From the NCBI GenBank assembly GCA_014859165.1, contig JACUUT010000003.1, positions 1 to 34,997 on the forward strand: DNA of 34,997 bases, in the 5' to 3' direction. The notes under the pieces were generated by a model. That model did not search any database, was not told where the DNA came from, and saw only the letters and a list, made by a program, of their open reading frames with translations. The stretch comes from Dehalococcoidia bacterium (lineage in GTDB: Bacteria > Chloroflexota > Dehalococcoidia > E44-bin15). Both the position numbers and the translations under genes were made by a program. The stretch's first letter is position 1; every line of letters begins with the position of its first letter. Of this stretch, positions 3,145 through 34,997 are shown one piece after another.

Positions 3145-5190
3145 ATGATAGATCCGATATTTATCGCGATAATCGCGGGTGCTTTGGGGCTTGCTTTTGC
3201 CGCGTTCCTCGCCACTTATGTATTGAGGCAGGATCAGGGCTCGGAGAGGATGAGGGAGATCTCAGGAGCCATCAAAGAGGGTGCGATGGCCTTCCTGAGG
3301 CGGGAATATCAAATACTGGCCATATTCGTTGTGGTCATTACCCTCGTTCTGGGTCTGATCCCTCCTCTCGGATGGTGGGTCGCCCTCTCCTTCATTTTCG
3401 GCGCTTTGTGCTCAGGGATCGCTGGCTTTATCGGCATGAATATGGCCATAAGGTCCAACTCCAGAACAGCGGCCGCCGCCGAGAGGAGTTTGAACCACGG
3501 ACTCAGGGTCTCCTTCCGCAGTGGGGCAGTGATGGGGCTCTGCGTTGTCGGCATTGGCATCCTGGGGTTGAGCATCCTTTACATTGCCTTTCATAGTAAC
3601 ATTGACTTTCTCAAAATTATCCCTGGCTTCGGCTTCGGCGCTTCGTTGGTAGCCATCTTCGCCAGGGCAGGTGGCGGCATCTATACCAAGGCAGCGGATA
3701 CCGGTGCTGACCTTGTGGGGAAGGTGGAGAAGGGCATCCCTGAGGACGACCCCCGAAATGCCGCTGTTATCGCCGACTTTGTCGGCGATAATGTGGGTGA
3801 TGTCGCCGGTATGGGCGCCGACCTCTTTGAGTCCTATGTGGACGCTATCATTGCTACTATGGCACTTTCCATGCTGGCCTGGTCTGCAACCATGACAGCT
3901 CCCTTGACCCCTGATAAGGAGACGGCATGGTATCTGCCGATGATGGTCGCTGCCGGGGGGATTATCGCCTCCATTATCGGGGCCTTTCTGGTCAGGGTAG
4001 GTGAAAAGCCGGAGATGAGTGCACTGCTGGGCGCATTACGCCGCGGCACCTTCTCAGCATCGATCCTGACTGCTGGTTTTGCCGCCCTGGCGGTATATTT
4101 CCTCGACGCCAGTTGGGGGATACTATGGGCTGTCCTCGCCGGGCTGATCGCCGGCATGCTCATCGGGGAGAGCACCAACTATTTTACCTCCTATAGCTTC
4201 GGGCCGACTCGCCGCATCTCCGAGGCGTCACAGACGGGCGCAGGCACCACGATAACAGCAGGGTTTGCCAATGGGCTGATGAGCACCCTACCCCCCATTA
4301 TCCTGGTAGCCATAGCCATCCTCGTGGCCCACTACTTCGCTGGCATGTATGGCATCGCTATCGCCGGGATTGGCATGCTCGCCACACTGGGGATCACCCT
4401 GGCCACCGACGCCTACGGCCCGGTGGCAGATAATGCTGGTGGGATCGTCGAGATGTCAGATTTGCCACCGGAGATCAGGGAGAGGACTGATGCCCTCGAC
4501 TCCCTGGGCAATACCACAGCAGCCACGGGAAAGGGATTTGCCATCGGGGCAGCGGCGCTCACCGCCCTCGCCTTGATGGTATCCTACACCCAGGCGGTAG
4601 GGATCCAATTCGCTGCTATCAGTCTGCTTGATCCGGTCGTGGTTGCCGGCTTATTCCTCGGCGTTCTGATGCCAGCTCTCTTCTGCGCCCTGACCCTGAA
4701 CGCGGTCGGCAGAACCTCCTTTGCCATAATTAACGAGGTTCGCCGCCAGTTCCGTGAGATCAAGGGGATCATGACAGGAGAGGCGAGACCTGAGTATGGC
4801 AAGTGCGTCGATATATGCACCAAGGCTGCCTTAAAGGAGATGATTGCACCTGGCCTCATCACTGTGGCTGCTCCCATTATCGTCGGCTTTGTATTGGGGC
4901 CGCTGGCTCTGGGAGGCTTCCTGATTGGGGCAATTGCTTCCGGATTCCTCATCGCCGTAATGATGGCTAATGCCGGTGGCTCCTGGGATAACGCCAAGAA
5001 GTGGATCGAGAAGGGCAACTACGGGGGCAAGGGGTCAGATGCCCATAAGGCAGCGGTTGTCGGCGACACGGTAGGCGACCCGTTTAAGGATACCTCGGGC
5101 CCATCCCTGAACATCATGATAAAGCTGATGTCCATAATAGCGCTGGTTTTAGCGCCGGTGCTGGCGGGCGTAACCGGGATTCTTGGGTAA
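3145..5190 (+). CDS. hppA: Membrane-bound ion-translocating pyrophosphatase
   Basis: Polytopic 681 aa protein with [11 protein letters not shown]-like ([47 protein letters not shown]) and [18 protein letters not shown] motifs and C-terminal [18 protein letters not shown]. Confidence 0.97.
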
Positions 5191-17485: not shown

Positions 17486-19036
17486 ATGGCGATTGAAGAG
17501 AGGATAGCGAGCTTAACCAAATTCAGGGCAGAGTCAAAGCTGGGTGGTGGCGACAAGCGGATTGAGGCCCAGCATGAGAAGGGCAAATTTACCGCTAGAG
17601 AGCGCATTGCCCTCCTCCTCGATGAGGGAAGCTTTGTGGAGCTTGATGCCTTTGTTACCCATCGCGCCACCGAGTTCGGGCTTGCCGATAAGAAATTTTT
17701 AGGCGATGCTATAGTTACTGGGTATGGAAAGATAGACGGCAGGCTTGTTTATCTCTTCGCGCAGGATTTCACCGTCTTCGGAGGGTCGCTTTCGAAGGTG
17801 GTAGCCGAGAAGACTTGTAAGGTGATGGACCTGGCGGTTAAGAACGGTGCTCCTATCATCGGACTCCTGGACTCCGGCGGGGCGAGAATTCAGGAGGGGG
17901 TGGACAGCCTCGCCGGATATGGCGATATATTCTACCGTAATACCATATACTCAGGGGTTATCCCCCAGATCTCGGTGATCATGGGCCCTGCTGCTGGCGG
18001 AGCGGTTTACTCCCCTGCCATCACCGACTTCATCTTCATGGTGAATGGAACGGCGCAGATGTATATCACCGGTCCAGATGTGATCAAAGCGACCACCGGT
18101 GAGGTGGTAACCCACGAAGAACTCGGCGGGGCGGTGGTTCACGCTGAAACCAGCGGGAATTGCCATTTTGTCGCCGAGAATGATGAAGAATGCCTGAAGA
18201 TGGTGCGTCAGCTCCTCAGCTATCTCCCTCAGAACAATAGGGAGAAGACCCCCTTGGTGGAGATCACCGATGACCCCGATAGAATGGATGAGGAGCTCCT
18301 TTACATCGTTCCGGAGGACCCCACCAAGGCATACAATATGAAAAAGGTCATCTGGAGAGTAGTGGATAACGGTGAATTTATGGAGGTTCATGAGAGCTTC
18401 GCCCCAAACATTATCACCGGCTTTGCCAGGCTCAATGGGCGCGCGGTGGGCATTGTTGCTCAGCAACCCTCCGTATCGGCAGGGTGTCTCGATATTGATG
18501 CCTCTGATAAAGCCGCCCGGTTTGTGCGCTTCCTCGATTGCTTCAATATCCCTATAATCACCTTCGTCGATGTCCCTGGATATATGCCCGGCGTCGATCA
18601 GGAATATGGGGGGATCATCAGGCATGGCGCTAAGGTGCTCTTCGCCTACGCCGAGGCTACCGCTCCCAAGGTTACCACCATTACCCGTAAAGCCTATGGT
18701 GGTGCATACATAGCGATGAGCAGCAAGCACCTCGGGGCCGACATCAACTATGCCTGGCCCATTGCCGAGATCGCGGTGATGGGGCCCGATGGTGCGGTGA
18801 ACATCATCTATCGAGACGCCATCAAACAGTCGGAGAACCCTGAGGAGACTCGCAGAACTCTCATCGCCGAATACACACAAAAGTTCGCCAACCCCTATGT
18901 AGCGGCGGGGAGAGGCTATATCGATGATGTCATCGACCCCAGGGAGACACGCCCCAGGCTGATAAAGGCACTGGAGATGCTCCAAAACAAACAGGATACA
19001 AATCCCCCCAAGAAGCATGGGAATATCCCGCTTTAG
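17486..19036 (+). CDS. mmdA: Acyl-CoA carboxylase carboxyltransferase subunit (methylmalonyl-CoA/propionyl-CoA type)
   Basis: [133 protein letters not shown]. Confidence 0.93.
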
Positions 19037-19102
19037 GGGAAACGGCGGGATAGTATTACGGATGATTTGTCTTTAGACAAGAGTCTTTGGGAGGTGGAAG
19101 CT

Positions 19103-20755
19103 ATGACTGGCATTGGAGAGGTCCCATATAAGGCAAGCGATTTGACTACCGAAAAAGTGAAGGATAGGCCAAAAGCAGCAAACCCGGTTAAGGTCTGTGA
19201 TACCACCTTTCGAGATGGACACCAGTCCGCTCTAGCCACCAGGATGCGAACCGAGGATATGGAATGGATGGCTGAGGAGATGAACAAATGTGGCTTCTAT
19301 TCCATGGAGGTTTGGGGAGGGGCAACCTTTGATGTCCCCCACCGCTTTTTGGGTGAGGACCCTTGGGACAGGCCTCGGAAATTGAAGAGGCTCATGCCTG
19401 ATACCCCATTGCAGATGCTCCTCAGAGGGCAGAACCTGGTTGCCTATCGAAACCACCACGATGATCTGGTCGATTGCTTCGTTGAGAATGCTGCCGAGGT
19501 GGGGATTGATATCTTCCGCGTCTTTGATGCCGTGAATGACGAGCGCAATCACGAACGCGCCGCTAAGGCAATCAAGAGGGTAGGAAAGCATTACCAAGGG
19601 GCGATATGTTATTCCCTCACCCAGCCCCGAATGGGTGGACCGGTGTATAACCTGGATTACTATGTCAAGAAAGCCCTCATCCTGCGGGATTTAGGTGCTG
19701 ATAGCATCTGTATTAAGGACCAGGCAGGGCTGATCTCCCCATATGATGCCTATGAGCTAATCAAAGCCCTAAAGGAGGTCTTAGATATCCCTGTCGAGCT
19801 CCATACCCACTACACTAGCGGACAGGGTTCCATGTCTCTATTAAAGGCGATCGAGGCTGGGGTTGATATCATCGATACTGCTCTATCCCCCTTCGCCTTA
19901 AGGTCTTCACAGCCGGCCATTGAGCCAATTGTGGTGGCTCTTTATGGGACAGATAGGGATACAGGGCTTGATGTCGAGCAACTATTAAAGTGTGGCCAGA
20001 TGCTTGAGCAGATAGCCCCCAAGTACAGGGATTTCCTGGACACCTCAGCGATGTCGGTCATCGACACCGGTGTGCTCGTCCATCAGATCCCTGGTGGGAT
20101 GACCACTAACCTAGTGGCCCAGCTAAGAGAGGCTGATGCGCTTCATAGGTTGGATGAATGCCGGGCGATGACGGCAAAGACTCGTGCGGAGCTCGGCTAT
20201 CCTCCCCTGGTTACTCCTACAAGCCAGATTGTGGGGGCTCAAGCGGTGCAGAACACCCTCTTCGGGCCTTACAAGTTTATCTCTAAAGAGGTGAAGGACT
20301 ACTGTTGGGGCCTATATGGTAAGCCACCAGTCCCCATTGACCCTAAGATCCAGAAGATGGTGCTTAAGGGCTATGAGCGTGGCGAGGAGCCGATCACCTG
20401 TCGCGCCGCCGACATGGTGAAGCCAGAGCTAGAGAAGGCTCACGAGGCCACAAAGGGTATCGCCAAAGATGACAAAGATGTGTTAACTTACGCCCTCTAT
20501 CCCACCACCGGGATGCGTTTCCTGAGATACAAATATGGATTGGACAAGGAGATCCCAGCAGATTGGAAGCCTCCCCGTGCCCCAAAGACCATGGAGGAGG
20601 TGAAGCGAGAGGATGAGCTTATCGCCAAGGTGAAGGAGGGCAAGCTTATGGAGGAGGTGGCCTCACCCTTGAAGCTGGAGCGCAGGGTTTATAGTATCTC
20701 TATGGGGGATGAGCAATACCGAGTGGAGGTGGAGCCAATTGATGAGGGCTGTTAG
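19103..20755 (+). CDS. Carboxyltransferase of the transcarboxylase 5S/oxaloacetate decarboxylase alpha/PycB family, no C-terminal biotinyl domain
   Basis: VKVCDTTFRDGHQSALATRMRTEDM, EVWGGATFDV, ICIKDQAGLISP, ELHTHYTSGQGSMSLLKAIEAGVDIIDTALSPFA. ATG at 19103 with upstream gggaggtgg preferred over TTG at 19067. Confidence 0.88.
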   Translation: MTGIGEVPYKASDLTTEKVKDRPKAANPVKVCDTTFRDGHQSALATRMRTEDMEWMAEEMNKCGFYSMEVWGGATFDVPHRFLGEDPWDRPRKLKRLMPDTPLQMLLRGQNLVAYRNHHDDLVDCFVENAAEVGIDIFRVFDAVNDERNHERAAKAIKRVGKHYQGAICYSLTQPRMGGPVYNLDYYVKKALILRDLGADSICIKDQAGLISPYDAYELIKALKEVLDIPVELHTHYTSGQGSMSLLKAIEAGVDIIDTALSPFALRSSQPAIEPIVVALYGTDRDTGLDVEQLLKCGQMLEQIAPKYRDFLDTSAMSVIDTGVLVHQIPGGMTTNLVAQLREADALHRLDECRAMTAKTRAELGYPPLVTPTSQIVGAQAVQNTLFGPYKFISKEVKDYCWGLYGKPPVPIDPKIQKMVLKGYERGEEPITCRAADMVKPELEKAHEATKGIAKDDKDVLTYALYPTTGMRFLRYKYGLDKEIPADWKPPRAPKTMEEVKREDELIAKVKEGKLMEEVASPLKLERRVYSISMGDEQYRVEVEPIDEGC

Positions 20756-23611: not shown

Positions 23612-24550
23612 ATGCGAAGGAAAGTAACCATCGTCGGCGCTGGGAATGTGGGTGCCTCTTGCGCGCAACGAATCGCCGAAAAGGGATACGCCGATGTGGT
23701 GCTGGTGGACATCATTGAGGGGTTGCCTCAAGGGAAAGCGCTGGATATACTCCAGAGCGGACCAGTTATTGCTTCTGATTCCCGCCTCATTGGCACCAAT
23801 AGCTATGAGGAAACGGCGGATTCCGATATCGTTGTCATCACCTCCGGGGTGCCCAGAAATCCTGGGATGAGCAGAAATGACTTGGTGTTCACCAATATGG
23901 AGATCATTAGAGGGGTCACCGAGAATGTAGCGAGGTATTCCCCCAACTGCATCATTATCATGGTCACCAACCCCCTTGATGCTATGGCTCAATTGGCGCT
24001 TCAGGTGAGTAAGTTCCCCAGAAATCGTGTCTGTGGGCAGTCCGGCATCCTTGATACTACAAGATTTCGAACCTTTCTGGCTATGGAGTTGGATGTCTCA
24101 GTGGAGGATGTATTCGCTTGTGTCCTTGGGGGGCATGACGACACCATGGTTGCCATCCCCAGGCTCACCACCGTTGGCGGCATACCGATAGCCGAACTTC
24201 TCCCTAAAGAGACCATCGATCGCATCGTGGAGCGCACCGTAAAGGGCGGTAGCGAGATCGTGAGCCTCCTCAAGAGAGGAAGTGCCTACTATGCCCCCTC
24301 AGCGGCAGTGGCCCAAATGGTGGATTCGATACTCCTGGATAAGAAGCGGATCCTGCCCTGCGCCGCCTACCTTGAGGGCGAATATGGCATTGATGGGGTA
24401 TTTGTCGGTGTCCCGGTAAAGCTGGGAGCCAATGGAATCGAGCAGATCATCGAGATAAAGCTCACCCCTGAGGAGGATGCAGCGTTGAGGAAGTCGGCTG
24501 AGGCGGTGAGGGAACTGGTGGATGTAATGAAGCCAGGACTAAAAAAGTGA
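23612..24550 (+). CDS. mdh: Malate dehydrogenase (LDH-like type)
   Basis: [109 protein letters not shown]. Confidence 0.94.
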
Positions 24551-25392
24551 GGGATATTGATTCAAAAAAAATAACAGAGACAGTGGCTCGCCTGTGTCAG
24601 GAGGCGAATTTCTACTTGGGCGAGGATGTTCTGGATTCGCTGAAGCAGGTAATGGATAAAGAGGAGGCACCTTTGGGGCGTCAGGTCTTAGAGCAAATCC
24701 TGGAGAATGCCAGTATCGCGGCAAAAGAGAAAATCCCCCTGTGCCAGGACACAGGGATCACGGTGGTCTATCTGTGGCTGGGTCAGGATGCCCATATCGT
24801 TGGCGGCGACCTTTATGATGCGGTGCAGGAAGGGGTGCGCCAGGGCTACCGCCAGGGGTATCTGCGAAATTCCATAGTAACAAGGCCCTTCTCGGCAAGG
24901 GTGAACACCAATGATAACACCCCTGCTATGATTCATGCGGAGATAGTGAGCGGCGATAATCTGCGCATTGTGGTTATGCCCAAAGGAGAGGGTAGCGAGA
25001 ACACGAGCCGCCTCACCATGCTCAACCCCGCCGATGGTCGCCAGGGTGTCATCGACTTCGTAGTCAGGACTGTGGAAGAGGCGGGAAGCGACCCCTGCCC
25101 TCCAGTCATTGTCGGCTTGGGGATTGGGGGAACAACAGGAAGGGTGATGATACTGGCAAAGATGGCGCTTCTGCGCAAGGTGGGGGAGCCCAATCCTGAC
25201 CCTGAGGTAGCAGAGCTGGAGAGGGAGATACTGGAAAGGGTAAATAGACTGGGCATTGGGCCGCAGGGTTTTGGCGGAAGTACCACTGCCCTGGCGGTGC
25301 ACGCCGCGGTCATTCCCTGCCATATGAGTGCCCTCCCGGTAGCCGTCAATATGCAATGCCACGCCGCCCGCTATAAGGAGGCAGTGCTTTAA
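24547..25392 (+). CDS. fumA: Class I fumarate hydratase alpha (N-terminal) subunit
   Basis: [90 protein letters not shown] start overlapping the mdh stop (GTGA). Confidence 0.93.
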
Positions 25393-25407: not shown

Positions 25408-25959
25408 ATGGATATTATATCGCCTTTCGATCCCCAGGTAATAGAAAAGCTTAGGGCTGGAGACCAGGTCTCCATCACGGGGGTCATCTATACTGCCCGC
25501 GACGCTGCCCATAGAAGGCTCGTCGAGGCCATGGACTGCGGTGAGGAATTGCCCTTCGATATTCATGGTCAGACCATTTACTACACGGCTCCCTCCACTG
25601 CCAAGCCTGGGCAGGTTATTGGCGCCGCAGGACCCACCACCAGCGGGCGGATGGATGCCTACTCGCCTCGCCTCATCGCCGCAGGGCTCAAGGGGATGAT
25701 CGGAAAGGGATCACGCTCCAGGGAAGTGAAGGATGCGATCAAGAAACATAAAGCCATTTACTTCGCCGCTATCGGAGGGGCTGGGGCACTGATCGCCAGA
25801 TCGATAAAGAATGCTGAGGTGGTGGGCTACAAGGATTTGGGGGCGGAGGCAATCATGCGCCTTGAGGTGGAGAACTTCCACGCCATCGTCATAAACGATG
25901 CCCACGGAGGGGATTTATTCGAGGAAGGGATGGCTAAGTACCAAAAGGAATTAAAATGA
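25408..25959 (+). CDS. fumB: Class I fumarate hydratase beta (C-terminal) subunit
   Basis: LRAGDQVSITGVIYTARDAAHRRLVEAMDCGEELPFDIHGQTIYYTAPSTAKPGQVIGAAGPTTSGRMDAYSPRLIAAGLKGMIGKGSRS. Confidence 0.93.
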   Translation: MDIISPFDPQVIEKLRAGDQVSITGVIYTARDAAHRRLVEAMDCGEELPFDIHGQTIYYTAPSTAKPGQVIGAAGPTTSGRMDAYSPRLIAAGLKGMIGKGSRSREVKDAIKKHKAIYFAAIGGAGALIARSIKNAEVVGYKDLGAEAIMRLEVENFHAIVINDAHGGDLFEEGMAKYQKELK

Positions 25960-26363
25960 GGGTTGAGATTTCAACTAAGAGGATATACAGCGACTTTGTT
26001 AAAAAGGTTGAGGAGATAAACGGGCAAACCCTCCCCCCCTGCTATCAATGCGGCAAGTGCTCGGCGGGATGTCCCATGTCCTTCGCCATGGAGTTGCTTC
26101 CCAATCAGATCATCCGCCTGGTGCAACTGGGGCTGGAGGAGGATATCGCCAAATCAAACACCATCTGGATATGCGCCTCCTGCATCACCTGTTCCCTTCG
26201 CTGCCCGAGGGGGGTGGACCTGGCAAGGGTAATGGAGGCATTAAGGCTTATCACCATGAGGAAAAATATCGATCATGTGAAAATATCGGAGATTCCCCAA
26301 GAAACCATCGCTGAACTCCCTCAGCTCGCCATGGTGGGTGGCTTCAGGAAGCTCACCGCTTGA
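25956..26363 (+). CDS. hdrC: Heterodisulfide reductase-like subunit C (4Fe-4S)
   Basis: CYQCGKCSAGCPMSFAMELLPNQIIRLVQLGLEEDIAKSNTIWICASCITCSLRCPRGVDLARVMEALR: two CxxCxxCxxxCP motifs. ATGA overlap with upstream fumB. Confidence 0.92.
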   Translation: MRVEISTKRIYSDFVKKVEEINGQTLPPCYQCGKCSAGCPMSFAMELLPNQIIRLVQLGLEEDIAKSNTIWICASCITCSLRCPRGVDLARVMEALRLITMRKNIDHVKISEIPQETIAELPQLAMVGGFRKLTA

Positions 26364-26372
26364 GGAGAAAGG

Positions 26373-27254
26373 ATGAACCTGAGTTATTATCCGGGATGCA
26401 CCTTAAAAACCAAGGCCAAAAACCTGGAGGATTCCGCCGTGGCTTCGATGGCAGCCCTGGGGGTCAATCTGGTGGAGCTACCACGGTGGAACTGCTGCGG
26501 GACGGTATATTCCTTTGCCGAGGATGAAGAGTTGCATCAGCTAGCCCCAGTTCGCAATCTCATTCGGGTAAAGGAGGTGGAGAGTAACAAGGTCGTAACC
26601 ATATGCTCCTTTTGCTATAACACATTAAAAAGAGCTAACCTGCTGATAACAAATGACCCGGAAAAGAGGAATACCCTCAATACCTTCATGGAAGAAGAGA
26701 TAGATTATAACGGTGAGGTCGAGGTAGTTCACCTTCTTGAGGTATTGAGGGATGAAGTAGGGTGGCAAAGCATCTCTCAGAAGGTGCAGCTCCCCCTCAA
26801 AGGGCTGAAGGTCGCTCCCTATTATGGCTGCACCCTGCTTCGACCGCAAGCGGTAGCCATTGACAATGTGGAAAGACCCACCATAATGCATGACTTGCTT
26901 CAAGCCCTGGGGGCTGAGGTGGTGGACTTCCCCTTTGCCACCGAATGCTGTGGCTCTTATCAAATATTGAGCAACCCGGATTTCGTTTCACATTGCGTCT
27001 GGGATATATTGAGCTCAGCGCTAAGATGGGGGGCTGAGGCCGTGGCCCTTAGCTGCCCCATGTGCGATTTCAACCTTGGTCAAAAGCAGAAAGAGCTGAG
27101 GCAAACACATAGCGGATTTAAGGGGATACCGATCCTCTACTTTACCCAGCTTCTCGCCCTTTCGCTGGGACTGGATCCTGAGGTGTGCCGCTTCGAGCTG
27201 AACTATGTAGACCCTCGTCCTCTTCTGGAAAGCAAGGGATTATTGAGGCAATAG
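26373..27254 (+). CDS. hdrB: Heterodisulfide reductase-like subunit B (two CCG domains)
   Basis: YYPGCTLKTKAKNLEDS...RWNCCGTVYS...CSFCYNTLKRAN and PYYGCTLLRP...TECCGSYQILSNPDF...CPMCDFNLGQKQ: both cysteine-rich CCG modules complete. Confidence 0.93.
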   Translation: MNLSYYPGCTLKTKAKNLEDSAVASMAALGVNLVELPRWNCCGTVYSFAEDEELHQLAPVRNLIRVKEVESNKVVTICSFCYNTLKRANLLITNDPEKRNTLNTFMEEEIDYNGEVEVVHLLEVLRDEVGWQSISQKVQLPLKGLKVAPYYGCTLLRPQAVAIDNVERPTIMHDLLQALGAEVVDFPFATECCGSYQILSNPDFVSHCVWDILSSALRWGAEAVALSCPMCDFNLGQKQKELRQTHSGFKGIPILYFTQLLALSLGLDPEVCRFELNYVDPRPLLESKGLLRQ

Positions 27255-27255
27255 C

Positions 27256-28983
27256 ATGGAAAGGATCGGAGTTTTTCTCTGCCACTGTAAACTTATTCCA
27301 CCTATAGACACGGGAAGGGTTTTTGAGGCAATAGGCAATAAGCCAGGTGTAGTTTATGCTGCTGATTATGAGGAAATGTGCATGGCGCCGGGGCTGGAGC
27401 GGGTTAAGGAAGCGATAAAGGACGAAAAACTGGATGGGGTGGTGCTCACCAGTTGCTCCCCGGCTCTTTATGAGGAGACCTTTCGCCATATTGTAACCTC
27501 CGCCGGCTTGGAAGGCTATCAGATGGTAGTCGCCGAGCTCAAGGGCCAGGATGGCGCCAAAGAGGCTACGCAGAGAGCTATCGAGGCTATCGAAAGTGCT
27601 CTAGAGAGGCTGCGGATGAGCCGGCCCACTGTCTCCTCTAGGGTTCCGATCACTAAGAGAGCTCTCGTAATCGGCGGCGGTATCGCCGGAATTCAGGCAT
27701 CGTTGGATATCGCTGATGCTGGCTACGAGGTTATTTTAGTGGAGAAGACCCCCAGCATCGGCGGGCGCATGATCCAGCTTTCGGAGACTTTCCCCACGCT
27801 TGATTGCCCTCAGTGCATCGAGACACCAAAGATGACGGACACCGGTCAGCACCCGAACATAAAGATATTGGCTTATAGCGAGGTGGAGGGGGTCTCGGGA
27901 AACATTGGAAAGTTTAAGGTTAAGATACGACGAAAGGCAGCCTATGTCGATTGGGACAAGTGCAACGGATGTGGGATCTGCCAGGAGAGATGTGCTACCA
28001 AGGCTCTTGCTGAATTTCAACAATATTTGGACTTGCCGGGGAAAATCGCCCATCGAAAGGCAATATATATCCCCTTCGCTCAAGCTGTCCCCATGAGACC
28101 TGTTATCGATAGGGAACACTGCCGTTATTTCACCAAGGGGAAGTGTGGGCTATGCGAGATGGCATGCCCCGTGGGGGCTATCGATTTCTCTCAGCAAGAT
28201 AGCTTCGTGGAAATAGAAGTCGGCGCAATCATTGTAGCTACGGGTTTTGACCTCATGCCCAAGAGCGAGATCGCAGAATTCGAAGAAGACCCTGATATCA
28301 TCGATGGGCTTGAGTTCGAGCGGCTCCTTTGTCCCGCAGGCCCCACTGCAGGCAAGGTCATAAGGCCATCCGATGGCAGGGAGCCAAAAGAGGTGGTATT
28401 CATCTCCTGTTGTGGCTCCCGCGACCCGGAGCATGGCGTCCCCTACTGCTCCAGGGTGTGCTGCATGTACCTGGTCAAGCATGCCCTCCTCTATAAGCAC
28501 GCTGTCCCCGATGGTCAAGCCTATATATTCTATATGGACATCCGAACCACAGGCAAGGGCTACGAGGAGTTCATCCAGAGAGCAGTGGAGGAGGATAAAG
28601 TCCTCTATCTCAGGGGCAGGGTGTCCAAGGTTTTCAGAGATGGCGACAAGATCAAGGTCTGGGGGTCAGATACACTGACAGGGAAAAGGGTGGAGATAGC
28701 TTGTGATCTTGCGGTCCTGGGCATGGCGATGCTGCCCAGTGAGGGATCCAAAGAGCTTGCGGTGAAACTGAGCATCGCCACCGATGAATATGGGTTTATG
28801 ACCGAGCTTCATCCCAAGCTTTGCCCCCTGGAGAGCACGGTTCCTGGGATTTACCTCGCCGGCTGCTGTCAGGGCCCAAAGGATATCCCGGACGCGGTGG
28901 CTCAGGGAGGCGGGGCGGCGAGCAAGCTTCTCTCACTATTCAGTCAAGATGAAGTGATATTGGAGGAGGCAGCAGTAAGTTAA
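27256..28983 (+). CDS. hdrA: Heterodisulfide reductase-like subunit A (HdrA-1, 575 aa, no C-terminal ferredoxin)
   Basis: MERIGVFLCHC, RALVIGGGIAGIQASLDIADAGYEVILVEKTPSIGGRMIQLSETFPTLDCPQCIETPKM, CNGCGICQERC, CGLCEMACPVGAIDF. Confidence 0.92.
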   Translation: MERIGVFLCHCKLIPPIDTGRVFEAIGNKPGVVYAADYEEMCMAPGLERVKEAIKDEKLDGVVLTSCSPALYEETFRHIVTSAGLEGYQMVVAELKGQDGAKEATQRAIEAIESALERLRMSRPTVSSRVPITKRALVIGGGIAGIQASLDIADAGYEVILVEKTPSIGGRMIQLSETFPTLDCPQCIETPKMTDTGQHPNIKILAYSEVEGVSGNIGKFKVKIRRKAAYVDWDKCNGCGICQERCATKALAEFQQYLDLPGKIAHRKAIYIPFAQAVPMRPVIDREHCRYFTKGKCGLCEMACPVGAIDFSQQDSFVEIEVGAIIVATGFDLMPKSEIAEFEEDPDIIDGLEFERLLCPAGPTAGKVIRPSDGREPKEVVFISCCGSRDPEHGVPYCSRVCCMYLVKHALLYKHAVPDGQAYIFYMDIRTTGKGYEEFIQRAVEEDKVLYLRGRVSKVFRDGDKIKVWGSDTLTGKRVEIACDLAVLGMAMLPSEGSKELAVKLSIATDEYGFMTELHPKLCPLESTVPGIYLAGCCQGPKDIPDAVAQGGGAASKLLSLFSQDEVILEEAAVS

Positions 28984-30941
28984 TGCTGAAAAGGATTGGC
29001 GTTTTTATTTGCCACTGCGGCTTGAATATCGCAGGAACGGTAGACGTGAAGCGAGTTGTGGAGACAATAAAGGATTATCCCGGTGTGGTCCACGCTGAGA
29101 GCTATATCTATATGTGCTCCGACCCCGGGCAGGACCTGGTGAGGAGAGCGATAAGGGAAAAAGGGCTTGATGGCGTTGTGATGGCCAATTGCTCCCCCTC
29201 GATGCATGAGAAGACCTTCCGCAATGTAGTGGCCAAAGAGGGGCTGAACCCCTATTTCTGCGAAGTAGCCAACATTAGGGAGCATTGCAGTTGGCCCCAC
29301 GAACACGAGAAAGAGCTAGCTACTAAGAAGGCGCTCCTCATTATTGAGACCACAATTGAGAAGCTAAAGCGAAATATGGAGCTAACACCCATGGTTGTCC
29401 CCCTTCACAAGAGGGCACTAGTGATCGGGGGAGGGATCGCCGGGATGCAGGCAGCCCTTGATATTGCCAGTGCTGGCTATGAGGTAATCATAGTGGAAAA
29501 ATTGCCCACTATAGGAGGGCATGCTATACAGCTAGCGGGGACCTTCCCCACGCTTAATCGTGTGCCGTGCCTTATGGCTCCCAGGATGGCGGAGATCGCC
29601 TCCCATCCTAAAATAAAGCTCTACACCTGTGCAGAGGTGGAGGATATCTCAGGCTATGTGGGCAATTTCGCAGTAAAGATCAAAACAAAGCCTTCCTACA
29701 TCAATGAAGAGAGATGCAATAATTGTGAGCTTTGCCTGGGTGAATGCCCCGTCACCTTGCCCGCTGAATTTGACCGCGGGCTCTCCCAGCGAAAAGCCAT
29801 CTACCTCACACCCAGAGAGGCGATCCCCCAGAAGCTTTTGATCGACCCGGGGAGCTGCCTGCACTTCAACGGGAATGAGTGCCATGCCTGTGAGGAGATT
29901 TGCCCCACTAAAGCCATCGATTTCCTCCAGCAAGAAACCATCGCCGAGGAGGTGGTGGGGGCCATAGTTGTGGCTACCGGGTATGAGATCTGGGACAAAA
30001 TGAATGTCCCAGAATATGCCTCGGACCCCGATGTCATCGATGGGCTCCAGTTTGAGAGGATACTTTCTCCCTCCGGTCCCACCGGAGGCGAGATCCGTAG
30101 ACCCTCCGATGGCAAGGTTCCCAAGGAGGTGGTGTTCATCTCCTGCGTCGGCTCCCGCGACCCGGAGCATGGCTTCACCTATTGCTCGAGGGTCTGTTGC
30201 ATGTATATTGCTAAGCAAGCGGTGCTCTATAGCAGGACTGTCCCTGAAGGACAGGCCTATGTCTTCTATATGGATATCCGATCCGACTCCAAAGGCTATG
30301 AGGAGTTCGTCAAGAGGGCGGTGGAGGAGGAGCGGGTGCTATATCTGAGAGGGAGGGTGTCCAAGGTCTTTCGGGATGGAGACAAGATCAAGGTTTGGGG
30401 CTCTGATACCCTCAGCGGCAAAAGCATTGAAATCGCTGCCGACCTTGTAATCCTGGCCACAGCTATGACGCCGAGCGAGGGCGCTAAGGAGCTGGCAAGG
30501 AAACTGAATGTTACCGTTGACGCACTGGGCTTCTTGACCGAGGCCCATCCCAAGCTCAGGCCGGTGGAAACGCTGACCACCGGCATCTATCTAGCGGGCA
30601 CCGCCCAGTGGCCCAGGGACATCCCGGATACCATCTCCTCATCCAGCGGAGCAGCCAGCAAAGTAATCTCCCTTTTCTCTAGGAAGGAGCTGCTTCATGA
30701 GCCTACAGTAGCCTGGCCCGATGAGGAGGTTTGCAGCGGGTGTGGGATTTGCGCCTCCATCTGCGCCTATCACGCTATAGAGATCGACCCCAAAAGGAGG
30801 GTGGCCAGGGTCAATGAGGCGGTCTGTGAAGGCTGCGGCGCCTGCATCGCAGCCTGCCCCTCAGGGGCGATGCGACAGAAGAACTGGACTGCCATGCAGT
30901 TTTTTGAGATGCTCGATGTGGCTACAGGAGCTTATGTATAA
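28983..30941 (+). CDS. hdrA: Heterodisulfide reductase-like subunit A (HdrA-2, 652 aa, with C-terminal ferredoxin)
   Basis: MLKRIGVFICHCGLNIAGTVDVKRV, GGGIAGMQAALDIASAGYEVIIVEK, CNNCELCLGECP, CHACEEICPTKAIDF, C-terminal CSGCGICASICAYHAIEID...CEGCGACIAACPSGAM. Confidence 0.92.
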   Translation: MLKRIGVFICHCGLNIAGTVDVKRVVETIKDYPGVVHAESYIYMCSDPGQDLVRRAIREKGLDGVVMANCSPSMHEKTFRNVVAKEGLNPYFCEVANIREHCSWPHEHEKELATKKALLIIETTIEKLKRNMELTPMVVPLHKRALVIGGGIAGMQAALDIASAGYEVIIVEKLPTIGGHAIQLAGTFPTLNRVPCLMAPRMAEIASHPKIKLYTCAEVEDISGYVGNFAVKIKTKPSYINEERCNNCELCLGECPVTLPAEFDRGLSQRKAIYLTPREAIPQKLLIDPGSCLHFNGNECHACEEICPTKAIDFLQQETIAEEVVGAIVVATGYEIWDKMNVPEYASDPDVIDGLQFERILSPSGPTGGEIRRPSDGKVPKEVVFISCVGSRDPEHGFTYCSRVCCMYIAKQAVLYSRTVPEGQAYVFYMDIRSDSKGYEEFVKRAVEEERVLYLRGRVSKVFRDGDKIKVWGSDTLSGKSIEIAADLVILATAMTPSEGAKELARKLNVTVDALGFLTEAHPKLRPVETLTTGIYLAGTAQWPRDIPDTISSSSGAASKVISLFSRKELLHEPTVAWPDEEVCSGCGICASICAYHAIEIDPKRRVARVNEAVCEGCGACIAACPSGAMRQKNWTAMQFFEMLDVATGAYV

Positions 30942-33900
30942 ATGGTAGGAGCGGTGCTCGTTATCGGCTCCGGGATCGGGGGGATGAAATGCTCCCTGGA
31001 GCTTGCTGAATCCGGGTTCAAGGTCTATCTTTCGGACCAAAGCCCATTTATCGGAGGCACGCTCACCCAACTGGATAAGTGGTTCCCCGATAATCACTGC
31101 GGGATGTGCAAAATACTTCCCGTCTTCTCCAGGGATGAATCCTCCCAATTTTGCCTCCGCCGCGGGCTCTTTCACCCCAATATCGAGCTTTTGCCCCTTT
31201 CCACGGCGGAGAAGGTAGAGGGTGAGGCTGGCGATTTCTTGGTCACCCTGAGAATCAAGCCCCGAGGGGTGAAGGAGGAGCTTTGTATCGGCTGCGACCT
31301 TTGCGCCCAGTCTTGCCCTGTGGCGGTAGCCAGCGAGTTTAACGAGGGGCTGGAAAATCGCAAGGCGATCTACCTTCGCAATCCCCTGGCACTGTCCAGT
31401 GGCTACAGTATCGATTGGGATTCTTGCACCAAATGCGGAGCCTGTGTGGAGAAGTGCCCCACCGCTGCCATAGACCTCTCCCCGCAAGATGAAGCGAGGC
31501 AGCTTGAGGTAGGGGCCATAGTGTTGAGCACAGGTTTTGAGGAATTCGATCCTCGATCCTGGACTCAGTATGGCTATAAACGCTATCCCAATGTGATAAC
31601 CAGCATCCAGTTGGAGCGGATGCTTAGCGCCAGCGGTCCAACAGAGGGAGAAATCCTTCGCCCTTCCGATGGCCAGCCTCCCCGGTCCATAGCCTTCTTG
31701 CAATGTGTCGGCTCCAGGGTCAAGGAAAGGGATTATTGCTCCTCGGCCTGTTGCATGTATGCCCTGAAGGAAGCGATACTCGCTAAGGAGAAAGACCCTG
31801 AGCTTGATGCCGAGATCTTCTTCATGGACCTGAGAGCCTTCGGCAAAGGCTATTACCGATATTATGAACAGGCGAAAGAGGATTTTGGGACCAAATTCAC
31901 CCGCTGCCGCGTGCCCCAAATAAAGCAAGACCCAAAGACTAAAAATCTGCTCTTCAGCGCCAAAGCGGAGGACGGGCTTGAGAGGCGAGAGTTCGAGCTA
32001 GTGGTGCTTTCTGTGGGGCAAACCCCATCGCCTCGCTTTTTCGAACTGAGCGAAATTTTGGGTATAGAGCGAAACCAGTGGGGTTTCTGCAAGACCAGAG
32101 AGCTTTCCCCTGTGGCGACCTCCAGAGAGGGCATCTATGTATGTGGCTCGGCCTCCGCTCCCAAGGATATCGCCGATACCCTGGTCGAAGCTGGCGCTGC
32201 TGCATGCCAGGTTTCAATACTGCTTTCCTCCCGGCGCAGTCAGTCGTTCACCATGAAAGGCTATCCAGAAGAGTTGGATGTTCGGGAGATGGAAGCCAGG
32301 GTTGCTATTTTCCTCTGCCGCTGCGGCGAGGAGATCGCATCGGCGATAGATATGCAGAAGATGGTCGATTTCGCTAAAGGGCTGCCCGTTGTAGTTTATG
32401 TCGAAGAAATCCCCTATCTATGCCTCAAAGATGCTGTGGCCGGAATGAAAGGAAGGATAAAGGGCGAAAAAGCCAATCGAGTAGTCCTGGCGGCCTGCTC
32501 CGCCTTCGCCTACAAGAGGCTCTTTATCGATGCGATTAGAGATGTGGGGCTAAACCCCGCTCTTCTAGAGGTGGTGGATATTCGGGAGCAGCTCTCATGG
32601 ATTCATCGAGACCACAAAGAGGCAGCGACGGATAAGGGGAAGCGCCTGCTGGCAATCGCATTAGAAAAGGTTGGAGCACAAGAACCTCTGCACACCCTCC
32701 CTCAGAGGGTGGAGCCCCGGGCTCTGGTTATTGGCGGTGGCCTTGCTGGCTTGACCGCTGCCCAGTCCCTGGCGGAGCAGGGGTTTGAGGCTCATCTAGT
32801 GGAGAGAACGGCTGAATGGGGGGGGAACCTGAGACATATTTTCACCATTCTGGAAGGGGGAGAGCCCCAGGCCCTGCTCCAAGATCTCATCAAGAGGGCG
32901 GAGGAAAATCCCCTCACTCACCTTCACCAGGAAACCGAGGTCATCCAGGTCTCGGGCTATGCGGGGAACTTTGAGACCACTCTTAAGGATAGGAATGGCG
33001 CTCTTCAACCATTAAAGGTAGGTGCAATCATCGTTGCTACCGGTGGCGAGGCGTATGAACCTAAAGAGTATTGCTACGGTGAGAGCGAAAGGGTCATAAC
33101 CCAGACGGAGCTGGAAAAACAATTGGCCTCAGGCAAACTTGACCCCAGGGAGCTCAACTCTGTGGTGATGATTCAATGCGTTGGCTCGAGGGATGAAGAA
33201 CGACCCTATTGCAGCCGCATGTGCTGCTCCCAAGCACTCAAAAACGCCCTGAGTCTAAAAGAGAGGAACCCTGAGATCGATATATTCGTCCTTTATCGGG
33301 ATGTGATGAGCTATGGGTTCAAAGAGGAGTATTACACTCATGCCCGAGAAAAAGGCGTCCTTTTCGTTAACTATGATTTAGATCATAAGCCGGAGGTGAG
33401 AATGGAGGGGGAAAGGCTTGTGGTCAAGGCTACTGAGCCCATGCTGGAGGGCGTCCTGAAAATAGAGCCCGATTTATTGGTGCTGAGCACGGGAATTGTT
33501 CCCAACGATAATAAAAGGCTTGCCCAGATGCTGGGTCTGGAATTGAGCGAAGATGGGTTCTTCAAAGAGGCGGAGGTAAAGTTCCGCCCTGTGGATTTCG
33601 TGACCAATGGCATCTTTTTATGCGGGCTGGCCCACTCGCCGAGGGGAGTGGCTGAGAGCATCGTTCAGGCTCAGGCGGCGGCGCAACGGGCAGCATGTAT
33701 CCTTTCCAGGGAACGATTGGAGTCGGGGAGAATCGTCTCCGAGGTCAATGAGAGGCGTTGCAGCGGCTGTGAGCTTTGCATCTCAGTCTGTCCCTATAAT
33801 GCCCGCTTCAAAGATACAGAGAAAGGGGTGGTCGTGGTAATAGAGGCGCTTTGCCAGGGTTGCGGTGCCTGTGTCGCCATCTGCCCCAGCGGTGCGGCAA

Positions 33901-33956
33901 AGCTCAGGGGATTTACCGATAGGCAGGTTTTCTCCATGGTGGATGCTATTTTATAG
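30942..33956 (+). CDS. hdrA: Fused double HdrA-like protein (HdrA-3, 1004 aa)
   Basis: N-terminal module VGAVLVIGSGIGGMKCSLELAESGFKVYLSDQSPFIGG with CIGCDLCAQSCP and CTKCGACVEKCPTAAIDL. Second HdrA start-like MEARVAIFLCRCGEEIASAIDMQKM and VIGGGLAGLTAAQSLAEQGFEAHLVERTAEWGG. C-terminal CSGCELCISVCPYNA...CQGCGACVAICPSGAAK. Confidence 0.9.
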   Translation: MVGAVLVIGSGIGGMKCSLELAESGFKVYLSDQSPFIGGTLTQLDKWFPDNHCGMCKILPVFSRDESSQFCLRRGLFHPNIELLPLSTAEKVEGEAGDFLVTLRIKPRGVKEELCIGCDLCAQSCPVAVASEFNEGLENRKAIYLRNPLALSSGYSIDWDSCTKCGACVEKCPTAAIDLSPQDEARQLEVGAIVLSTGFEEFDPRSWTQYGYKRYPNVITSIQLERMLSASGPTEGEILRPSDGQPPRSIAFLQCVGSRVKERDYCSSACCMYALKEAILAKEKDPELDAEIFFMDLRAFGKGYYRYYEQAKEDFGTKFTRCRVPQIKQDPKTKNLLFSAKAEDGLERREFELVVLSVGQTPSPRFFELSEILGIERNQWGFCKTRELSPVATSREGIYVCGSASAPKDIADTLVEAGAAACQVSILLSSRRSQSFTMKGYPEELDVREMEARVAIFLCRCGEEIASAIDMQKMVDFAKGLPVVVYVEEIPYLCLKDAVAGMKGRIKGEKANRVVLAACSAFAYKRLFIDAIRDVGLNPALLEVVDIREQLSWIHRDHKEAATDKGKRLLAIALEKVGAQEPLHTLPQRVEPRALVIGGGLAGLTAAQSLAEQGFEAHLVERTAEWGGNLRHIFTILEGGEPQALLQDLIKRAEENPLTHLHQETEVIQVSGYAGNFETTLKDRNGALQPLKVGAIIVATGGEAYEPKEYCYGESERVITQTELEKQLASGKLDPRELNSVVMIQCVGSRDEERPYCSRMCCSQALKNALSLKERNPEIDIFVLYRDVMSYGFKEEYYTHAREKGVLFVNYDLDHKPEVRMEGERLVVKATEPMLEGVLKIEPDLLVLSTGIVPNDNKRLAQMLGLELSEDGFFKEAEVKFRPVDFVTNGIFLCGLAHSPRGVAESIVQAQAAAQRAACILSRERLESGRIVSEVNERRCSGCELCISVCPYNARFKDTEKGVVVVIEALCQGCGACVAICPSGAAKLRGFTDRQVFSMVDAIL

Positions 33957-34016
33957 GGAAACAATTCAAAGCTAATTAGATAGGAATTGTTTTCTGGTTA
34001 TGTAAAGGAGGTTGCT

Positions 34017-34445
34017 TTGCAGGAAGAGGGGTTTGAACCTAATATCGTGGGTTTGCTATGTCACTGGTGCACCTATACTGCTGCCGATCTGGCAGGCACC
34101 ACTAGAACGCAATATCCCACCAACATCCGCCCTATCCAAACCATGTGCAGTGGTATGGTGGACTCTGTCTATGTGCTCTGGGCTCTTCTCGGCGGAGCCG
34201 ACGGAGTAATGATCGGGGCATGTCATCCTGCCGATTGCCACTATGTATCGGGCAACTATAAGTGTAGAAGAAGGACAGCCATCCTCAAAAGCATTCTCAA
34301 CACCCTGGGGCTGGAGGATGATCGGGTTTGGCTTTGCTGGATTAGCGCCGCCGAAGGGAAGCTGTTTGCCAATACGGTGGCTAAGTTTACCGAGGCGATA
34401 AGGAAACAAGGGCCTAACCCGATTAAAAAATATTGGTCCGCTTAG
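34017..34445 (+). CDS. mvhD: MvhD-like hydrogenase/heterodisulfide reductase-linked iron-sulfur subunit
   Basis: PNIVGLLCHWCTYTAADLAGTTRTQYPTNIRPIQTMCSGMVDSVYVLWALLGGADGVMIGACHPADCHYVSGNYKCRRR. TTG at 34017 follows a strong RBS (aaaggagg, 34004-34011); the ORF track start is 33987. Confidence 0.92.
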   Translation: MQEEGFEPNIVGLLCHWCTYTAADLAGTTRTQYPTNIRPIQTMCSGMVDSVYVLWALLGGADGVMIGACHPADCHYVSGNYKCRRRTAILKSILNTLGLEDDRVWLCWISAAEGKLFANTVAKFTEAIRKQGPNPIKKYWSA

Positions 34446-34454
34446 GAAAGAATT

Positions 34455-34997
34455 ATGGCGACAAGTGCGATTTTAGAGGTCAAGGGCGGGGGTCTGCTGA
34501 ATACCCTCAATACGCTCTGGCGTCAATTGTTTGAAAAAGGAATCGTAGATGCCCTGCTCATCCCTCAGGAGCTTCCCTCAAGAGAGAATGTGGTGCAAAC
34601 TTTAGTAAGCCGCGCCGAGAGCCTTGGATCCCCTAGCCCTCTGGCTCCTGTTTTGCCGGTGAACTCGGCGAGGATCGTCTCCCAGATGACCAAGGTCACA
34701 CCCAGCCCGAAGAAGGTCGGGGTAGTGCTTAGGTCCTGCGAACTGAGGGCTCTCATCGAGCTGGTGAAACTGAAACAGGCATCACTGGAGAACCTGGTTT
34801 TGATTGGGATAGATTGCTTCGGCACCTACTCCATAAAGGACTATGGAAAGCTTGCCAAGGATGGCTCTTCCCCCACCGAGGCTTTTCTAAAGGTGGTCAA
34901 GAATGGAAAGGAAGACCTATCCCTTAGGCAGGCTTGCCAAATGTGTGAATACCCTGCCCCCATGAATGCTGACATAACCATTGGTTTAATAGGGAGT
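34455..34997 (+). CDS. FrhB/FdhB-like (coenzyme F420 hydrogenase/dehydrogenase beta family) subunit, truncated at window end
   Basis: MATSAILEVKGGGLLNTLNTLWRQLFEKGIVDALLIPQE...VGVVLRSCELRALIELVKLKQASLENLVLIGIDCFGTYSIKDYGK. Open to the last base. Confidence 0.75.
   Translation, partial: MATSAILEVKGGGLLNTLNTLWRQLFEKGIVDALLIPQELPSRENVVQTLVSRAESLGSPSPLAPVLPVNSARIVSQMTKVTPSPKKVGVVLRSCELRALIELVKLKQASLENLVLIGIDCFGTYSIKDYGKLAKDGSSPTEAFLKVVKNGKEDLSLRQACQMCEYPAPMNADITIGLIGS

Follow-up and report, generated by a model that had tools for sequence, protein, structure and literature searches.

The methanogen heterodisulfide reductase (Hdr) complex HdrABC-MvhAGD (PDB 5ODC) has one type of HdrA arranged as a symmetric dimer, in which Cys197 gives a ligand to the N-terminal cluster of the partner chain (PMC9012536). 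Fused double HdrA and tandem HdrA proteins have already been published for anaerobic methanotrophic (ANME) archaea and Moorella (PMC9012536, PMC12054007), and the type II HdrA clusters of methane-metabolizing archaea combine HdrA with MvhD and FdhB, sometimes with an extra type I HdrA and HdrD (PMC12054007). The "succinate operon" of Pseudoclostridium thermosuccinogenes comprises fumarase, Flx-Hdr, and fumarate reductase (PMC7282089). In the current study, we analyzed a stretch of 34,997 nucleotides (the window; contig JACUUT010000003.1, here C91) from a Dehalococcoidia metagenome-assembled genome (1.09 Mb, 96.6% complete), which carries the gene run hdrC-hdrB-hdrA1-hdrA2-hdrA3. On balance, we favor the reading that these genes begin an operon whose product is a soluble fumarate reductase that bifurcates electrons at flavins, possibly in two stages; its direction, donor, and stoichiometry we infer. 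Separate publications exist for fused or tandem HdrA, for proposals of two stages, and for fumarate reductase coupled to Hdr (PMC9012536, PMC12054007, PMC7282089, PMC6315080); a literature search of partial coverage found no description of this combination or of the operon in Dehalococcoidia.

With the methanogen complex, the locus shares the HdrA domain plan, the iron-sulfur ligands, the flavin residues E356 and K409 (numbering and domain map follow 5ODC chain A), the CCG motifs of HdrB, and MvhD; it differs in having two kinds of asymmetric HdrA pair and an operon without MvhAG. The ANME tandem and fused HdrA proteins and the Moorella HdrABC-MvhD-MetVF system show the same complementary distribution of Cys197 and the N-terminal domain, which was read as a mark of heterodimers, although in that fusion the N-terminal domain lies in the first half, whereas in HdrA3 it lies in the second (PMC9012536). 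The archaeal type II clusters are alike in their fused double HdrA, MvhD, FdhB/FrhB, and extra HdrA, and two bifurcation events have been proposed for them; there, however, the acceptor is CoM-S-S-CoB and the donor F420H2 (PMC12054007), whereas here CofD was not found, the window has no Molybdop gene of the FdhA-like kind, and the relatives carry fumarate reductase. The P. thermosuccinogenes operon likewise unites fumarase, soluble Hdr, and fumarate reductase, and it has been proposed to couple the reduction of fumarate by NADH to that of ferredoxin (PMC7282089). The present locus is set apart from it by MvhD with FrhB, by its four HdrA modules, and, in the relatives, by two pairs of HdrC-HdrB; none of the assigned open reading frames (ORFs) from mdh to frhB is Flx-like, an assignment made without a Flx-specific profile and with the downstream side cut. 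Finally, the reductive tricarboxylic acid (TCA) cycle cluster of tubeworm symbionts and Thioflavicoccus (flxABCD-hdrABC, korABCD, tfrAB) also sets hdr genes among TCA genes and a homologue of thiol:fumarate reductase but, unlike the present locus, includes Flx subunits and 2-oxoglutarate:ferredoxin oxidoreductase genes among the hdr genes (PMC6315080).

The five hdr genes are intact ORFs on one strand, separated by 9, 1, -1, and 0 bp and followed by mvhD and frhB, so that the near-contiguous order reported in the first-pass annotation holds; its HdrC, HdrB, and HdrA identities were confirmed by profiles and by the cysteine map. We mapped the operon on 36 related loci, cited here by L numbers. 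HdrB1 and the HdrB2 of L051 each contain two CCG (CX~31-39CCX~35CXXC) motifs, and HdrC1 and the L051 HdrC2 each contain two CX2CX2CX3C motifs, both hallmarks of soluble HdrABC. Since HdrA, HdrB, and HdrC all score below the curated cut-offs of the NCBIfam equivalogs for CoB-CoM heterodisulfide reductase, we do not claim that identity for them.

All four HdrA modules of the window retain the TrxR four-cysteine cluster, E356, and K409, yet they differ in their accessory domains. HdrA1 has the N-terminal cluster domain, the FAD/TrxR domain, and the inserted ferredoxin but lacks the C-terminal ferredoxin, while HdrA2 has every HdrA domain, the C-terminal ferredoxin included. HdrA3 consists of two HdrA-like halves, as had been noticed from its translation, and because a single chain holds two thioredoxin reductase domains, it is a type II HdrA. 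Its N half keeps Cys197 and lacks both the N-terminal domain and the C-terminal ferredoxin; its C half has these two domains and lacks Cys197 and the inserted ferredoxin. Cys197 in the N half and the N-terminal cluster cysteines in the C half were found in 16 of 16 HdrA3 proteins; HdrA3 carries the complementary Cys197/N-terminal-domain pair within a single chain. An AlphaFold model of HdrA3 (pLDDT 79, pTM 0.82) matches HdrA chains.

The strongest result of our analysis concerns HdrA1 and HdrA2. Among 14 tandem pairs, two of which (L059 and L066) are of a distant acyl-CoA dehydrogenase/electron transfer flavoprotein (ETF) type, the N-terminal cluster domain of HdrA1 is present in exactly the 7 whose HdrA2 has Cys197; in the other 7, HdrA1 lacks the domain and HdrA2 has D, G, or P at the Cys197 position. 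This co-variation amounts to 4 changes on the tree, at least 2 of them forced by well-supported branches, with a close contrast between L116 and L045/L072 (Fisher p = 6e-4, a statistic that ignores relatedness). In L054, L056, L060, and L063, HdrA1 starts right behind hdrB1, with no N-terminal domain upstream in frame, and the missing domains are therefore not start-site errors. The pattern supports a predicted HdrA1-HdrA2 heterodimer or interface, and it lends independent, sequence-based support to the proposal of asymmetric HdrA heterodimers (PMC9012536). It also bears on another reading, in which the complex is of the ordinary HdrABC type, its HdrA genes are duplicates with some redundancy, and no special coupling exists. 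Every part of the locus is indeed homologous to known Hdr parts; however, the fact that partners lose domain and ligand together, the conserved order, and module-specific domain loss across several phyla all speak for distinct roles, and we consider this alternative very unlikely. HdrA2 of this clade is rare, occurring in 8 genomes (the window's own included) of a class sample of 393, with matches of at least 68% identity where every other match had at most 57%; a phylum sample searched at 1e-215 yielded no more of them except in G006.

The window terminates at position 34997, within frhB, and what lies beyond must be sought in relatives. The hdrC-hdrB-hdrA-hdrA-hdrA order recurs in Chloroflexota, Thermodesulfobacteriota, and unplaced bacteria and is therefore not due to chance. 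All 19 contigs that have the HdrA3-mvhD-frhB order and reach far enough carry another hdrC-hdrB pair behind frhB (L042-L048, L050, L051, L054, L055, L059-L061, L063, L066, L070, L072, and L075), and in 13 of them frdB comes next (plus frdA where the contig reaches); gene order differs in L069 and L074. The single HdrC-HdrB pair counted from the window, presumably, is one of two here as well, and we reject the 4:1:1 stoichiometry of flavin modules to HdrB and HdrC as an artifact of the contig ending inside frhB. The accompanying idea of a bifurcating scaffold with specialized subunits fared better, in that the HdrA modules are specialized, belong together, and all four carry bifurcation-type residues, though without the 4:1:1 dosage. 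In the window's own genome, frdA begins at base 2 of contig C72, from about residue 65; it is 85% identical to the frdA of L051, and the genes downstream of it are the same as in L051. Judged from L051, the stretch missing between C91 and C72 would be about 3 kb. The full inventory is likely four HdrA modules, two HdrB, and two HdrC with FrdBA, beside mdh-fumAB. A search of the same genome for HdrB2 turned up hdrB1 and, on contig C83, the hdrB gene (46%) of another cluster, but nothing else. This second hdrC-hdrB-hdrA cluster (L010:5544-7718, G000:C83) is itself truncated by a contig end and sits slightly 3' of thiolase-like and acyl-CoA dehydrogenase-like genes.

The relatives point to fumarate as the terminal acceptor, which the first-pass annotation had left open. 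FrdA of L051 matches Sdh/Frd flavoproteins, its best family being NF004900 TfrA (328.5 bits against a cut-off of 718). The TfrB of thiol:fumarate reductase is one chain with SdhB-like and HdrB-like parts; we met no such fusion in the relatives, where hdrB2 and frdB are separate genes. FrdB has, by motif, the cysteines for one [2Fe-2S] and two [4Fe-4S] clusters. In an alignment of 11 FrdA sequences, the FAD and active-site residues are invariant, and in all 11 Asn replaces the covalent-FAD His that is typical of enzymes that oxidize succinate well, a substitution that favors the reductive direction. The C72 frdA is the sole Sdh/Frd-type flavoprotein found in its genome apart from a NadB. A match on C114 was considered as a second one and rejected, as it adjoins a nadA-like gene and resembles NadB. 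In a Delongbacteria contig (L076:1-4354), we observed a simpler hdrA-hdrC-hdrB-frdB-frdA run, which is possibly a minimal form of Hdr-linked fumarate reductase.

Ahead of the hdr genes, the window encodes a carboxyltransferase pair together with aconitase, isocitrate dehydrogenase, malate dehydrogenase, and fumarase, and mdh is also found 5' of hdrC1 in L046, L054, L056, and L060. The mdh-fumAB genes directly upstream and the methylmalonyl-CoA mutase in the genome support a bifurcating fumarate reductase, as does, by analogy, the fumarase-Hdr-fumarate reductase precedent of P. thermosuccinogenes (PMC7282089). The same context suits the reverse operation, an electron-confurcating succinate dehydrogenase passing the electrons of succinate and reduced ferredoxin to NAD(P)H, e.g., in propionate oxidation via methylmalonyl-CoA: the carboxyltransferase pair, mdh, and fumAB stand in one gene run, methylmalonyl-CoA mutases occur in 8 of 8 genomes searched (the window's own included), and two-stage coupling is calculated to lie near equilibrium (see below). 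Given that FrdA has Asn where good succinate oxidizers have His, we regard this direction as improbable. As an observation in its own right, the carboxylase pair (17486-20755) is MmdA/12S-like plus PycB/OadA/5S-like rather than biotin carboxylase plus PycB, which, with the mutases of the genome, suggests a transcarboxylase and methylmalonyl-CoA (propionate) route.

It may be asked whether the operon encodes one assembly or two complexes without direct contact, namely, HdrC1-HdrB1-HdrA1-HdrA2 and HdrA3-MvhD-FrhB-HdrC2-HdrB2, one serving FrdBA and the other another acceptor. The presumption that the three HdrA proteins keep company held only in part: HdrA1-HdrA2 of this clade was never seen without HdrA3 where the contig allows, but L048 and L070 have HdrA3-mvhD-frhB-hdrC2-hdrB2 without HdrA1 and HdrA2, and in L059 and L066 the HdrA3 block adjoins acyl-CoA dehydrogenase and ETF genes. 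These cases speak for two complexes. Conversely, HdrA2 (accompanied by HdrA1 if the contig is long enough) and the Frd genes co-occur in 12 contigs and are both absent from L048 and L070, though elsewhere Frd adjoins the HdrA3 block, and a single mvhD would have to serve two C-terminal ferredoxins; we therefore think separate complexes unlikely. The related blocks of L059 (4190-17169) and L066 (2513-16989), which stand beside acyl-CoA dehydrogenase and ETF genes and not fumarate reductase, may tie another substrate couple near 0 mV to stacked HdrA.

With regard to the electron donor, NuoF and a HoxU-like protein adjoin HdrA1 in L046 and L050, and a GltD domain lies inside HdrA1 in L045, L049, L061, L063, L072, L116, and the more distant L066; the window's genome has a GltD-NuoE-NuoF fragment on C19. 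The FrhB/FdhB homologue next to mvhD, whose full-length L051 orthologue resembles FdhB of Fdh-Hdr complexes, has as its best solved matches the beta subunits of F420 formate dehydrogenases, which would fit an F420-dependent confurcating complex resembling the ANME HdrA-FrhB clusters. However, CofD, the only F420 gene tested, is absent from the window's genome and 7 relatives (6 of the 8 at least 90% complete); F420 is thus unlikely as carrier or donor, and we consider such a complex highly improbable. DsrC was likewise rejected as an HdrB partner, as there was no PF04358 match in the 8 genomes.

In the bifurcating fumarate reductase that we favor, electrons of NAD(P)H or a comparable donor would enter at HdrA1 by way of the NuoF-type subunits or GltD domain of the relatives, with the FrhB-MvhD branch as an alternative or additional entry. 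The HdrA pairs would split them at the HdrA flavins, one stream passing through HdrC-HdrB and FrdB-FrdA to fumarate (+33 mV) and the other through the inserted ferredoxin domains to ferredoxin (Fd). With two stages stacked, the overall reaction would be 3 NADH + fumarate + 2 Fd(ox) -> succinate + 2 Fd(red) + 3 NAD+, and at an Fd potential of -500 mV it would come close to reversibility. Assuming textbook potentials (fumarate, +33 mV; NAD, -320 mV; Fd, -500 mV), we calculated -33 kJ/mol per fumarate for one stage and +1.4 kJ/mol for two; at an Fd potential of -420 mV, the values are -49 and -30 kJ/mol, and because the result shifts with the assumed potential, the near-equilibrium outcome is only illustrative. 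A more specific proposal, that of a reversible two-stage bifurcating fumarate reductase/succinate dehydrogenase with two asymmetric HdrA pairs in series, is tentative and, in our estimate, rather unlikely. Fumarate reduction and succinate oxidation usually require a membrane and quinones. If the proposal is true, two reduced ferredoxins per fumarate would capture nearly all of the fumarate-NADH potential gap, and the cytoplasmic step would be free to go in both directions, needing neither quinones nor a membrane potential. How anaerobes with very small genomes manage this step would be learned from a soluble complex with two HdrA pairs, which would also make two-stage bifurcation testable within one operon; to date, such bifurcation is no more than a proposal, made for the type II HdrA of archaea and for class II benzoyl-CoA reductase (PMC12054007).

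Several points weigh against a bifurcating fumarate reductase. K409 of the HdrA3 C half varies among relatives (K, Q, A, T, or E); its loss in several of them makes four equal bifurcating flavins unlikely, and this flavin may be nonbifurcating in some. The hdrC2, hdrB2, and frdB genes of the window's genome are presumed ones, their stretch falling in the C91-C72 assembly gap. The reductive direction turns on a single residue and the gene context, and in the window and L051 neither NuoF nor GltD is found at hdrA1.

Table 1. Coordinates of the hdr operon and its neighbors in the window
Feature	Coordinates	Strand	Basis
Carboxyltransferase pair (context only)	17486..20755	+	MmdA/12S-like 17486-19036; PycB/OadA/5S-like 19067-20755
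mdh, malate dehydrogenase	23612..24550	+	TIGR01763, 462.5 bits, above cut-off 351.85
fumA, fumarase alpha part	24547..25392	+	NF004885, 394.2 bits, above cut-off 276
fumB, fumarase beta part	25408..25959	+	Position behind fumA and homologues next to fumA/hdr in L054, L056, L060, without its own profile search
hdrC1	25956..26363	+	Two CX2CX2CX3C motifs; TIGR03290, E 2.7e-20, under family cut-off
hdrB1	26373..27254	+	Two CCG motifs; TIGR03288, 163.4 bits, under family cut-off
hdrA1, 575 aa	27256..28983	+	Residue map against 5ODC chain A
hdrA2, 652 aa, partner of HdrA1	28983..30941	+	Residue map against 5ODC chain A; co-variation
hdrA3, 1004 aa, type II HdrA of two fused halves; N half ~1-440, C half ~441-1004	30942..33956	+	
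mvhD (FlpD)	33987..34445	+	PF02662, 157.3 bits
frhB/fdhB-like, truncated by contig end	34455..34997	+	PF04432

Elsewhere in this 1.1-Mb genome, we noted a membrane pyrophosphatase (window positions 3145-5190) scoring above the cut-off of NF001958 (sodium-translocating type). A [NiFe]-hydrogenase large subunit (PF00374) lies on contig C98 (L135:4239-6319, G000:C98), where the neighboring gene is truncated by the contig end; this hydrogenase may be of the MvhAG type.
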